DNA from: Gemmatimonadota bacterium
Lineage (GTDB): Bacteria > Latescibacterota > UBA2968 > UBA8231
Assembly: GCA_002712305.1 (NCBI GenBank)
Contig: PATE01000033.1
Coordinates: forward strand, 1 to 21,330
Reading direction: 5' to 3'
Length of the DNA: 21,330 nt
Shown here: positions 15,759 to 20,563 of the stretch, piece by piece
Layout of the letters: the number at the start of each line of letters is the position of its first letter
Numbering within the stretch: position 1 is the first letter of the stretch
Position numbers and translations under genes: made by a program
The notes under the pieces: model-generated
What the model saw: the letters and a program-made list of their open reading frames with translations, nothing else
The model's database searches: none
Told to the model about the DNA's origin: nothing

Positions 15759-16688
15759 TCAGGCTCCCGTAACTTCAGGCCCCAGTTCAGCCAATTCCTG
15801 CGCCGTTCCCATCGAACGAACCTCCAATGCCCGGTCGATACGCCTCACCAGCCCCTTGAGCACGGCACCGGGACCGACCTCATATGCTCCAGTGACACCG
15901 GTTCCGACGACGGCCTTCACCGAGTCTGTCCAGCGCACGGGTGCCGTCATCTGCTCGATCAGCAACTGCTGGAGGCGCTGAGGATCTGTTTCCGCCGTGG
16001 CGCTCACGTTGGTGACCACCGAGGCCCGAGGAGCAGAGAAGGACGCCTGCTGAAGTTGCGTCGCCAGTTCGTCGGCGGCTGGCACCATCAACGCAGAGTG
16101 AAAGGCACCACTCACGAGCAGGTCCACGACCCGTTTGGCGCCGGCTTCGTTTGCCGCCACCCCAACTCGAGCAACAGCATCGGCTTCCCCGGAGATGACG
16201 ATCTGCCCAGGGGCGTTGAAGTTGGCCGCTACGACGACCCCCTCGTCGGCCTCACACAGTCCCACGATCTGCTCATCGTCGACGCCAAGGATCGCCGCCA
16301 TCGCTCCTGGCCTCTGGCTACCTGCGGCCTGCATCAACTCGCCTCGGCGGTGCACCAGTTGCAGAGCAGCGCCGAAATCAAGTACGCCCGCCGCGACGAG
16401 GGCTGAATACTCACCCAGACTGTGTCCGGCAACGACCGATGGTTCCACCCCCTGCTCGCTGAGCAGTCGTGCACAAACCACACTGTGCAGGAAAACCGCC
16501 GGTTGGGTAACACTGGTCTTGGAAAGCTCTTCCATGGGGCCGTCGAAGCAGATCGTCGACAGCGAGAACCCGATGGTGTCGTCAGCTTCTTCGTAGAGCT
16601 GTCGCGCTACCGGATAGGCCTCAGAGAGGTCCTTGCCCATGCCGACCAGCTGCGAGGCCTGGCCGGGGAAAAGAAAGGCCGTCGTCAT
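15759..16688 (-). CDS. fabD: Malonyl-CoA:ACP transacylase
   Basis: 309 aa. It transfers malonyl from CoA to ACP. The N-terminal FLFPGQASQLVGMG is typical; the nucleophile is Ser90 in GHSLGEYSAL, the partner His197 is in SGAFHSALM, and TQPAVF (61-66) is also family-typical. ATG at 16686-16688 shares ATGA with the fabH stop, indicating translational coupling. Confidence 0.97.
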   Translation of the reverse strand: MTTAFLFPGQASQLVGMGKDLSEAYPVARQLYEEADDTIGFSLSTICFDGPMEELSKTSVTQPAVFLHSVVCARLLSEQGVEPSVVAGHSLGEYSALVAAGVLDFGAALQLVHRRGELMQAAGSQRPGAMAAILGVDDEQIVGLCEADEGVVVAANFNAPGQIVISGEADAVARVGVAANEAGAKRVVDLLVSGAFHSALMVPAADELATQLQQASFSAPRASVVTNVSATAETDPQRLQQLLIEQMTAPVRWTDSVKAVVGTGVTGAYEVGPGAVLKGLVRRIDRALEVRSMGTAQELAELGPEVTGA

Positions 16689-17686
16689 GCGGCCGTTCCC
16701 CAGCGCAGCAGAGCAGACCCCCAGGTGAGACCACCGCCCACGGCGGTCAGTTGCACGAGATTCCCCGGCTGAAGGCGCCCCTCGTCGAAAGCCTCGGACA
16801 ACGCGATAGGGACCGTACCGGCCGTCGTATTGGCCATGTGTTTGATGTTGCTCATCACCCGATCGGCGGGAATCTTCATCTTGTTTGCCGTGGCATCGAT
16901 GATTCGCTGATTGGCCTGGTGCGGGACGAACAGATCGAGATCTTGAGGGGTCAATTCGTTGCGCTGCAGAAGGCTGAGGGAAACCTCCGCCATGCGCTGA
17001 ACCGCGAACTTGAACACCGTTCGCCCTTCCTGGCGAATGAAGTGGAGTCGCTGCTCGACGGTCTGCTTCGTGGCCGGCCAGAGAGATCCGCCGCCGGGGA
17101 CATTGAGATCATCACATCCTGATCCGTCGGCGTGCAATTCGAAGTCGATGAGTCCACTGTCGTCCTCAGAGGCTTCGAGCAGGACGCCCCCGGCCCCATC
17201 CCCGAAGAGAATGCACGTGGAACGATCGGTTGGATCGGTGATGGCACTCATGCGATCGGCACCGATCACGATCACCCTCTTGTGCGTGCCACTGGTGATG
17301 AACTGGGCGCCTGTGACCAGGGCGTAGACAAAGCCGGAGCAGGCGGCTAGCAGATCGAAGGCCCAGGCTTTTGAGGCGCCGATCCGGTCCTGCACCAGGC
17401 AGGCCGTTGAGGGACACACCATGTCGGGTGTGATCGTGGCGACGAGAATCAGATCGATATCGTCGCCGGATATCCCTCGACGACGCAACAGACCCTTGGC
17501 CACTTCTGTGGCCATGAACGAAGTCGGCTGATCGTCGAGGATTCGGCGTTCAGCGATTCCGGTCCGCTCGCGGATCCACTCGTCGGACGTGTCAACGGTC
17601 CGCTCTATATCTTCGTTCGTCAGAATCCGATCGGGCAGGAAACGTTCACATGCGGTAATCGTCGCGCGGGGCGAGGAGGAGGCCAC
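16685..17686 (-). CDS. fabH: 3-oxoacyl-ACP synthase III (KAS III)
   Basis: Primes fatty acid synthesis by condensing acetyl-CoA (or another acyl-CoA) with malonyl-ACP. From GTG 17684-17686 it is 333 aa, starting MASSSPRATITACERFLP, with Cys116 in AACSGF, His256 in PHQANQR and Asn286 in ANTTAG as the catalytic triad. The family motif DTSDEWIRERTGI is intact. A longer frame opens at an ATG at 17821 inside rpmF and would add 45 Arg/Pro/Ser-rich residues with no family counterpart, so the GTG is chosen although its ribosome-binding site is poor. It follows rpmF by 52 bp; plsX, often found between these two genes, is absent. Confidence 0.95.
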   Translation of the reverse strand: MASSSPRATITACERFLPDRILTNEDIERTVDTSDEWIRERTGIAERRILDDQPTSFMATEVAKGLLRRRGISGDDIDLILVATITPDMVCPSTACLVQDRIGASKAWAFDLLAACSGFVYALVTGAQFITSGTHKRVIVIGADRMSAITDPTDRSTCILFGDGAGGVLLEASEDDSGLIDFELHADGSGCDDLNVPGGGSLWPATKQTVEQRLHFIRQEGRTVFKFAVQRMAEVSLSLLQRNELTPQDLDLFVPHQANQRIIDATANKMKIPADRVMSNIKHMANTTAGTVPIALSEAFDEGRLQPGNLVQLTAVGGGLTWGSALLRWGTAA

Positions 17687-17738
17687 GGAGTCGAAAGCGG
17701 GACTGGACGTGGGACGAGACGCGAGCTCGCCTGCGTCT

Positions 17739-17921
17739 CTAGTCCGCCGGCTCCTGGTAGGTGCGACCTCGATAGGTGCCACAACTCTTGCACACCGTGT
17801 GGGGGCGCGATGCCGACCCACACTGAGGACAGGTGCTACGAGCTGTCACTTTGAGTTTCCAGTGGGTCCGACGCTTGTTGCGTCGAGTACGGGAGATTCG
17901 TCGCTTGGGTACCGCTGGCAT
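17739..17921 (-). CDS. rpmF: Ribosomal protein bL32
   Basis: 60 aa, highly basic. The N-terminus [13 protein letters not shown]-like (here [18 protein letters not shown]) is diagnostic. Two CxxC pairs (Cys31/34 and Cys44/47) form the zinc-ribbon version of L32. It is a large-subunit ribosomal protein. ATG at 17919-17921 follows AGAGAG. The yceD-rpmF-fabH order is the conserved bacterial arrangement. Confidence 0.96.
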
Positions 17922-17982: not shown

Positions 17983-18534
17983 TCAGGTGCCTTGCTTCAG
18001 TTGGGACAGGGCCGCCCATCGAGGATCGACCTCATTCTCGGCGCAATCGCACGCCCCGTGATTCAGATCTGCCCCACACTGCCCACACAATCCCTTGCAG
18101 TCTTCTCGACAATGAATCCGCAGCGGCATGTCGAGAGCGACCGCATCTCGCAGAGCGTCTACGAGCGTCACCTCTCGGACACCCGGATCGACGACGAGGA
18201 TCTCGTCCTCATCTTCGATCGCCTCTAACTCTTCAGGCCCGGCTTCCTTGCGCTGTATGAACAACCGGAACTTCGTATCGAAGGATGCCGTCGTCGGCGC
18301 CAGGCACCGACCACAATCCCCAAGTAGCTCACCGTGCACTTTGCCCTTCAATGTGAAGGTTTGCAGGGTGTGCCCGATCGTCATCGACACGTCGATCGGT
18401 GCATCGAACCGCAACTGACCATCTTCGATGCCCACCTCAGCGGCACCGATCTGAAATGAGCACTCACTGATCCCTTCGTCAATCTCGTCGAGGACGAGGA
18501 CCCAGTCTGGCGGAATGTCAGTCGCGCGCGTCAC
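17983..18534 (-). CDS. yceD: YceD/DUF177 family protein (23S rRNA accumulation protein)
   Basis: 183 aa from GTG 18532-18534, close to E. coli YceD (173 aa). The family pattern is present: a first Cys pair in CGRCLAP (Cys74, Cys77), an acidic stretch, then the C-terminal Cys-rich motif [17 protein letters not shown] with further cysteines (142, 146, 150, 153, 162, 164). YceD homologues lie beside rpmF in most bacteria and affect 23S rRNA levels; the biochemical role is unclear. A frame reaching back to 18618 would overlap ndk by 73 bp and add 28 unconserved residues, so the GTG 11 bp after the ndk stop is preferred. The Cys set suggests metal binding, which is inference. Confidence 0.88.
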
Positions 18535-18545
18535 AATTCGTGCCG

Positions 18546-18953
18546 TCAATCGCCGAAATAGAAGGCGATCTCCTTGGCAGCATTCTCGTTGGAATCTGAC
18601 GCATGGACGGCGTTGCACTGAATATCCGTGCCGAATTCTGCCCGGATCGTCCCGGGAGCGGCCTTGGTGCTGTCCGTCTCGCCGATGAAATCACGGAGAT
18701 GAGCCACGGCGTTCTCGCGCTCGAGAGCGACCTGAACGGATCGGCCCGAGGTCATGAAATCGACGAGCTCGCCGTAGAAGGGGCGCTCCTTGTGAACCTC
18801 GTAGAAGGCCTCGGCCTGTTCGCGCGTCAGGTGGTTCATCCGCATCTGGCGAATGACAAATCCCTCGACCTCAAGGCGCTGCAGAATATCACCGATCGCA
18901 TTCTTGGCGACGGCGTCGGGCTTGACCATCAATAGCGTGTTCTCCCCGCTCAC
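18546..18953 (-). CDS. ndk: Nucleoside diphosphate kinase
   Basis: 135 aa. It transfers the gamma-phosphate of NTPs to NDPs through a phospho-histidine. The active site is His117 in NAVHASDS, and the start TLLMVKPDAV is typical. The family lysine and arginines lie in KPDAV, KERPFY and GTIRAEF. GTG at 18951-18953 with AGGAG seven bases upstream. It is the first gene of the long minus-strand block and follows a leader of about 170 nt with an internal terminator. ndk at the head of a yceD-rpmF-fab operon is not the standard arrangement. Confidence 0.97.
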   Translation of the reverse strand: MSGENTLLMVKPDAVAKNAIGDILQRLEVEGFVIRQMRMNHLTREQAEAFYEVHKERPFYGELVDFMTSGRSVQVALERENAVAHLRDFIGETDSTKAAPGTIRAEFGTDIQCNAVHASDSNENAAKEIAFYFGD

Positions 18954-18988
18954 GCGGCAACTCCTGTGGTGTTAAGACGTGTTGGGCT

Positions 18989-19042
18989 GCAAATGAGTCG
19001 CAAATGAGCTGCAGTTGAGTCTGGGGATCGACTCTGGGGATC
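18989..19042. repeat. Short tandem repeats in the ndk leader
   Basis: Three 9-base copies spaced exactly 11 bp apart, GCAAATGAG at 18989 and 19000 and the variant GCAGTTGAG at 19011, are followed directly by TCTGGGGATC twice with a 13-bp period (19020 and 19033). They lie between the leader terminator and the ndk ribosome-binding site. The 11-bp phasing puts the copies on one face of the helix, which suits a protein-binding site, but they could also be RNA elements or simple slippage products. Confidence 0.6.
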
Positions 19043-19045
19043 AGC

Positions 19046-19082
19046 AAAAAAACGGGCCGGCCCCTCGTGCTTGGCCCCGGCC
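19046..19082 (-). terminator. Intrinsic terminator inside the 5' leader of the ndk-fab block (attenuator-like)
   Basis: On the minus strand, GGCCGG (19082-19077) pairs with CCGGCC (19060-19055), with a short inner CC/GG pairing. The hairpin is followed by CG and seven T (19052-19046). No minus-strand gene lies upstream of it before the divergent promoter pair, so it can only act on the ndk leader transcript. Just upstream, a GGTC-GCAA-GGCC tetraloop hairpin (19090-19079) uses four of the same bases as its 3' arm. The two structures are mutually exclusive. Confidence 0.65.
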
Positions 19083-19128
19083 TTGCGACCTCTTGATCTG
19101 TCAAGCTGCAGCCTGCGATAAGTGCATG

Positions 19129-19157
19129 AATTTAGGGGCCATTAGGCAAAGTGTCAA
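19129..19157 (-). promoter_or_regulatory. Promoter of the ndk-fab block
   Basis: On the minus strand a perfect TTGACA (19157-19152) and TAAATT (19134-19129) are separated by 17 bp. The expected transcription start is near 19123, giving a leader of about 170 nt to the ndk GTG, or a product of about 78 nt if transcription stops at the leader terminator. Confidence 0.65.
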
Positions 19158-19174
19158 CGGCTCGGGCCTCCTGC

Positions 19175-19203
19175 TTGACAGGGTTTCACACCCCCGGTAA
19201 CCT
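19175..19203 (+). promoter_or_regulatory. Promoter of the HD phosphohydrolase gene, near-leaderless
   Basis: A perfect TTGACA (19175-19180) and TAACCT (19198-19203) are separated by 17 bp. The expected start, about 7-8 bases after the -10 box, falls at 19210-19211, only about 3 bases before the ATG at 19214. No Shine-Dalgarno sequence precedes that ATG. It diverges from the ndk promoter with the two -35 boxes 17 bp apart. Confidence 0.6.
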
Positions 19204-19213
19204 AGCCCGCACG

Positions 19214-20563
19214 ATGGCCATTTCCCATCCACTTCTCGACGACGACGGCAAGGCGATTCGTGACCCCATTTGGGGCTACGTGCACATCCCGGTCCCTCTG
19301 CTCGCTCTGGTAGACACCGAAGACTTCCAGCGTCTTCGCAACATCAGCCAACTCGGTTTTGTGCATCTCGTCTATCCAGGAGCGCGTCATTCCCGCTTCG
19401 AGCACTCCCTTGGGGTCTATCACCTGGCCAAGCAGTTTCTCCAGAGACTCCTCGAGTCCGACCCTCCCCTCGAGCTGGCCGACGAGGACATCCCGGTGTT
19501 CCTGGCCGCCACCCTGCTTCATGACCTCGGCCACTACCCCTTCTCGCACACCCTCGAGGAGCTGACTCCTTTCTTCGTCAGCCATGAGCAGCGCGCTCGG
19601 CGGCTGATTGAAGACCCGAAGGGCGAAGTCTACCGTGTTCTTCGCGACGAACTGCAAGTAGACCCCGCTCGTGTGGCAAATGTCATCGACTACGAGGGTG
19701 CCGATCGGAAGATTCCCGATCGAGATCTGTTGCTGGCCAACATCCTGTCCGGAACCCTCGACCCCGACAAGATCGACTACCTGCTGCGTGATTCCATGTT
19801 CTGTGGGGTCCCCTTTGGTGAGAGTGTGAATCGCGATCGGCTCATCGCCGCTATTCGATACGATTCGACTCGCCGTCGACTGGCGATCACGAGCAAGGGG
19901 GTTTCCGCGGTAGAATCGCTCGTGTTCACGAACTATCTCATGTATCGCAATGTCTACTGGCACCACACGGTGCGGGCCGCAACAGCCATGTTCAAACGAT
20001 CGGTTCAGGATGTTCTGATGCATCCCGACTGCTCGCTACGAGCCGAGGATTTCCACCGTGTTACAGAGGGTGAATTGCTCATGAGGTTGGCCCAGGAGCA
20101 GGAGCGTCTGGGCCTCGAAGGAGCCCGCCGCCTTCTCGACGGTGTCGTGCGGCGACGGCTGCACAAAGTGGCCAGTTTCATCTATCCCGGCGAACGCAAG
20201 CAGGGACTGTTACACTATCTGTATGACCTGTATCAGAACCCGGACAAGCGTCGCCTGAAGGAAGTGGAGTTGTGTCGGCATTTCGCGGGTCAGCTGGGTC
20301 GGGAATCAACAGGTGACGAGATCCTCATCGATATCCCGCGGTTCGACAAGACACCAGAGGTCGACCTAAAGGTCTTCTATCGAGAAGCCGTGCCGAGTGA
20401 CAAACCGCAGCCTCTGAGTTTTGATGACCCCGAAGTCTCAAGGCTGCGCGAATCCCTCGTCGACAACTTCGAAGATCAGGCAAAGATCTTTCGGATTTTC
20501 TGCGTCGGCGATGTGGATATGCTCGAGCGAGTCGGAGCCGACGTGAAACGCCATCTCTCCTGA
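19214..20563 (+). CDS. HD-domain phosphohydrolase (COG1078, dNTPase/SAMHD1-like)
   Basis: 449 aa. The N-terminus (DPIWGYVHIP, then DTEDFQRLRNISQLG) and RHSRFEHSLGVYHLA are typical of COG1078 proteins such as B. subtilis YwfO and the E. faecalis dNTPase EF1143. Metal ligands are His64, His103-Asp104 in LLHDLGHYPFSH, and an Asp of LDPDKIDYLLRD (183-192), the same layout as SAMHD1. Probable activity is hydrolysis of dNTPs to nucleoside and triphosphate, balancing nucleotide pools; this is interesting next to ndk, which makes NTPs and dNTPs. The chosen start is ATG 19214. An in-frame ATG at 19151 would put the promoter inside the coding region and adds 21 unconserved residues. The exact substrate is not readable. 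Confidence 0.88.
   Translation: MAISHPLLDDDGKAIRDPIWGYVHIPVPLLALVDTEDFQRLRNISQLGFVHLVYPGARHSRFEHSLGVYHLAKQFLQRLLESDPPLELADEDIPVFLAATLLHDLGHYPFSHTLEELTPFFVSHEQRARRLIEDPKGEVYRVLRDELQVDPARVANVIDYEGADRKIPDRDLLLANILSGTLDPDKIDYLLRDSMFCGVPFGESVNRDRLIAAIRYDSTRRRLAITSKGVSAVESLVFTNYLMYRNVYWHHTVRAATAMFKRSVQDVLMHPDCSLRAEDFHRVTEGELLMRLAQEQERLGLEGARRLLDGVVRRRLHKVASFIYPGERKQGLLHYLYDLYQNPDKRRLKEVELCRHFAGQLGRESTGDEILIDIPRFDKTPEVDLKVFYREAVPSDKPQPLSFDDPEVSRLRESLVDNFEDQAKIFRIFCVGDVDMLERVGADVKRHLS

Follow-up and report, generated by a model that had tools for sequence, protein, structure and literature searches.

The ndk gene in the window, by which we mean the entire analysed stretch of 21,330 nucleotides, is preceded by a terminator-like hairpin that is best explained, at about even confidence, as a lineage-specific, leaky promoter-proximal terminator, setting or coarsely tuning the output of the ndk-yceD-rpmF-fab operon. 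According to this model, a conserved sigma-70-type promoter would drive the operon, its 5' leader would have grown by roughly 100 nt in this species (represented by the window's genome, G000), gaining the hairpin along with a run of seven U residues, and this element would end a fraction of the transcripts early, with the rest reading through into the operon. We infer the transcription start, the termination itself and the partial readthrough alike. The model is favored by the conservation of the promoter but not of the leader, by a hairpin with U7 that exceeds chance expectation, by the use of intrinsic terminators in this genome, by a stability below that of 3' terminators, by a hairpin followed by U5 in a more distant relative (G015), and by the lack of an upstream minus-strand gene. 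Against it stand the absence of the terminator from the nearest relative (G001), the internal loop and 2-nt gap in the hairpin, a full-leader fold without the terminator, and the origin of the hairpin-bearing leader in a single metagenome-assembled genome (G000; 4.77 Mb). Because close relatives lack the hairpin, we consider it a premature terminator of local occurrence and probably partial effect rather than a new riboswitch.

Table 1. Features at the ndk locus, in window coordinates.
Feature	Position	Strand	Basis
rpmF, ribosomal protein L32	17739..17921	-	PF01783
yceD (DUF177)	17983..18531	-	PF02620
ndk, nucleoside diphosphate kinase	18546..18953	-	PF00334, E 1.6e-51
Predicted ndk 5' leader, 169 nt	18954..19122	-	start inferred 6 nt after -10
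Intrinsic-terminator-like hairpin + U7	19046..19082	-	sequence, folding, shuffles
GGTC-GCAA-GGCC tetraloop hairpin, -4.0 kcal/mol	19079..19090	-	sequence, folding
Small hairpin CTTGA-CAGA-TCAAG, -2.0 kcal/mol	19092..19105	-	sequence, folding
ndk operon promoter TTGACA-17-TAAATT	19129..19157	-	sequence, conservation, genome enrichment
HD gene divergent promoter TTGACA-17-TAACCT	19175..19203	+	sequence; CCCTGTCAAG block
HD-domain phosphohydrolase gene, divergent	19214..20563	+	PF01966 + PF19276; family-conserved

A conserved promoter and a variable leader

The minus-strand genes recognized by Pfam are ndk, yceD, rpmF, fabH, fabD, fabG, fabF, rnc and a lipoate ligase-like gene, and a gene for an HD-domain phosphohydrolase, whose ATG at 19214 comes from a rough gene call, diverges from them. 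The operon order proposed in the initial annotation is borne out by Pfam and by conservation, HD-ndk-yceD-rpmF-fabH being the order in nearly every locus of the family that extends far enough to cover it, and ndk-yceD-rpmF-fabH recurring in other families of the class. In many bacteria plsX is located between rpmF and fabH; it was not found between them here (cluster 16685-17921), as judged by Pfam and gene order.

Upstream of ndk, TTGACA (19157-19152) and TAAATT (19134-19129) are separated by 17 nt on the minus strand, exactly as had been claimed for a strong promoter, and a TTGACA and a TAnnnT box are kept in all of the class genomes readable at this site (44/44), at a spacing of 17 nt in 43 and of 16 nt in one. 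In two genomes from a different family, the boxes read TTGAC(C/T)-17-TACCTT. In the window's genome, the promoter pattern, at no more than one mismatch, has 15 matches, versus 0 for a reversed control. The ndk operon promoter is thus well supported as real by its conservation. On the opposite strand, TTGACA-17-TAACCT ends approximately 10 nt before the start codon of the HD gene (19175-19216), a distance so short that the HD mRNA probably has little or no leader; the -35 region of this promoter (CCCTGTCAAG on the minus strand) is kept in most family members.

The leader presents a different picture. It measures 169 nt here, against 40-114 nt in the 45 further genomes examined, and in most relatives the same promoter is found directly before ndk, with a leader of 40-78 nt that has no terminator. 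The leader is thus unconserved across the class while the promoter and the gene order are conserved, a pattern that speaks against a conserved RNA sensor. The only other genome of the genus compared, G001 (Ndk 86% identical), is 86% identical in the promoter region, and there the similarity continues into the beginning of the leader and ends short of the terminator. When the leader DNA was searched against the family, the match in G001 was confined to the promoter plus ~76 nt at the start of the query, G015, G005, and G009 matched at the promoter region, and the remaining matches were short and chance-like. The terminator stem is absent from G001, the leader of which forms its own 9-bp hairpin (-15.0 kcal/mol) without a U-tract, and leaders of other relatives also contain hairpins without U-tracts.

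Two direct repeats, both short and imperfect (GATCCCCAGAGTC/GATCCCCAGACTC, and CTCATTTGC present twice), lie between the terminator and ndk (18985-19042) and suggest that the leader may have grown recently, in tandem. No sign of a dispersed repeat was seen, other matches to the leader in its own genome being of 16 nt (E 0.88). A potential leader peptide (ATG CAC TTA TCG CAG GCT GCA GCT TGA) was dismissed, as it starts before the predicted start site and has no recognizable ribosome site; no aptamer, leader peptide or conserved antiterminator is visible in the leader. In families f3 and f4 (loci L025, L026, L117, L118, and L121), the initially transcribed region upstream of ndk is CTTCATCTTCA, after which a short inverted repeat (GCG/CGC, GCC/GGC) flanks TGATA, its stem apparently varying; these UGAUA-loop hairpins near the start, examined by eye, are too short to claim.

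The terminator-like hairpin

The small CTTGA/TCAAG hairpin, the tetraloop hairpin and the terminator of the initial annotation are all found on the minus strand where it had placed them. The terminator, situated ~40-76 nt after the predicted start, is composed of GGCCGG (19082-19077), CCGGCC (19060-19055), CG, and T7 (19052-19046), and its stem has two registers, GGCCGG/CCGGCC (-14.2 kcal/mol) or GGGCC/GGCCC (about -11 to -12 kcal/mol), both leaving a stem that adjoins the U-tract. In the stronger register the stem is interrupted by a 2x2 internal loop, due to which a simple terminator scan missed the hairpin, and is separated from the U-tract by 2 nt. Only 6 of 2000 dinucleotide shuffles of the leader yielded a hairpin of -14 kcal/mol or lower together with 7 or more U in 8. 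As had been claimed, gene calls place no minus-strand gene before the terminator, so that the layout is that of a 5' premature terminator, with a promoter upstream, a same-strand gene downstream and no upstream gene, and the GC-rich hairpin with its U-tract is stable beyond chance.

How such hairpins are used elsewhere in the genome was assessed by running a rough, self-trained gene finder over 375 kb, made up of the window and a further 354 kb in separate stretches. The 150 nt after stop codons contained 15 hairpins of -14 kcal/mol or lower with at least 6 U in 8 (53 per 100 kb), versus 20 in coding DNA, both strands counted (3 per 100 kb), and at -14 kcal/mol with 7 U only 3 were present in 674 kb of coding strands; by this measure, the genome uses intrinsic terminators after stop codons. 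The post-stop hairpins mostly form clean stems, at about -19 to -28 kcal/mol; the one in the ndk leader is weaker and has an internal loop. Naville and Gautheret (2010; PMC2965389) describe the same trend, with averages of -16.5 kcal/mol for 5' terminators and -20.2 kcal/mol for 3' ones. The premature-termination role that the initial annotation assigned to the hairpin is therefore plausible as far as the conserved promoter, the absence of an upstream minus-strand gene and the similar post-stop hairpins go, termination itself being deduced.

A hairpin of similar layout is present in G015, a more distant member of the same family, in which neither of the small hairpins is kept. It is an unrelated, perfect 11-bp hairpin (GGCCGGAGCGG/CCGCTCCGGCC, -23.9 kcal/mol; L014, minus strand, upstream of ndk), located ~10 nt after the predicted start and followed by GCTTTTT, and it is missing from the other members of the G015 genus compared. 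Among the 46 leaders, hairpins of -14 kcal/mol or lower with at least 5 U were observed three times, in G000, G015 (-23.9 kcal/mol), and G042 (-15.1 kcal/mol, its U-rich stretch separated by CCTTA), versus ~0.25 expected, an excess that points to, without proving, a recurrence of terminator-like hairpins in ndk leaders.

Alternatives to the proposed leaky termination

The main rival to leaky termination is a neutral or stabilizing hairpin in a fast-evolving 5' UTR, at most protecting the 5' end of the mRNA, with the U-tract incidental. We regard this as possible, though clearly less probable. It fits the wide variation of leader length and structure beside a conserved promoter and conserved genes, and the hairpins without U-tracts in G001 and in other leaders, but a U7 run immediately after a hairpin is unusual both for this leader, by the shuffles, and for coding DNA.

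A regulated attenuator or riboswitch-like element, as originally proposed, in which the small hairpins would serve as an antiterminator or as a sensor of a nucleotide or ribosomal signal, appears unlikely. It is consistent with the minimum-energy fold of the full leader, which breaks the terminator (-58.9 versus -56.1 kcal/mol with it) and pairs GCTGCAG near the start with CTGCAGC downstream of the terminator. Much of the stability of the full 169-nt fold (z about -1.7 to -2.2) comes from this pairing, and an 85-nt segment of the leader shows no unusual stability (z = +0.46). However, the GCTGCAG/CTGCAGC helix cannot be a classical antiterminator, since it needs RNA made after the decision point. 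The initial annotation also held that only one of the tetraloop hairpin and the terminator could form, but the tetraloop coexists with the shifted GGGCC/GGCCC stem: in the RNA up to the U-tract this combination is the best structure (-24.6 kcal/mol) and is nearly isoenergetic with the originally annotated register (-24.0 kcal/mol), so that no clean switch exists. No mutually exclusive antiterminator formed before the U-tract was found. The leader has no match in Rfam, either at gathering thresholds or at E up to 5, and thus belongs to no riboswitch family described there. Conservation of both hairpins in relatives, by which the original proposal was to stand or fall, is seen neither in the single congener nor in the family: in G001 the first small hairpin keeps 3/5 pairs (2 broken) and the tetraloop hairpin 2/4 (2 broken). 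With the hairpins broken in G001 and G015, and the region absent from most relatives, which have the same operon without any such leader, no conserved aptamer with covariation is seen, nor is there a leader motif conserved across the class, as would be expected of an L32 leader. Nothing, then, supports a riboswitch in the ndk leader.

More speculative, and improbable in our estimate, is the idea that ndk leaders of the family repeatedly gain unrelated promoter-proximal terminators, as in G000 and G015, for lineage-specific attenuation via some signal. An independent small RNA of ~76 nt, with ndk reached by readthrough or from another promoter, would fit the promoter-terminator spacing but is very improbable, as the same promoter lies directly before ndk in most relatives (40-78 nt leader) and the RNA sequence is not conserved.

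Known leaders and significance

The ndk-leader hairpin most likely belongs to a known type, the 5' premature terminators (PMC2965389), with which it shares a position between promoter and first gene, no upstream same-strand gene, a stability below that of typical 3' terminators, and poor conservation. It differs from the attenuators of that study in having no evident antiterminator fold acting before the U-tract and in being present in one genome, with a different hairpin in G015. Two sets of predicted attenuators, the rnk-leader and the fabH-leaders (PMC2965389), lie upstream of related functions, a regulator of Ndk and fatty-acid synthesis, and would lend some support to regulation at ndk, but the likeness considered is that of a 5' terminator before genes of related function, the ndk leader having a different gene and gene order and no Rfam match. 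Ribosomal-protein autoregulatory leaders are comparable in that the operon encodes ribosomal protein L32, but rpmF is the third gene here, and neither a conserved leader structure nor an Rfam match is present. A literature search found no ndk attenuator, and searches on the rpmF-plsX-fabH operon and on Latescibacteria with riboswitches returned nothing on this leader.

The firmer result is comparative, in that the promoter and the gene order are conserved through the class and the leader is not. If the leaky terminator is real, it would add to the growth-linked operons whose output is determined by early termination, in a lineage represented here by metagenome-assembled genomes only, and if such terminators do recur, they would point to attenuation of an operon that unites the synthesis of nucleotides, ribosomes and lipids.
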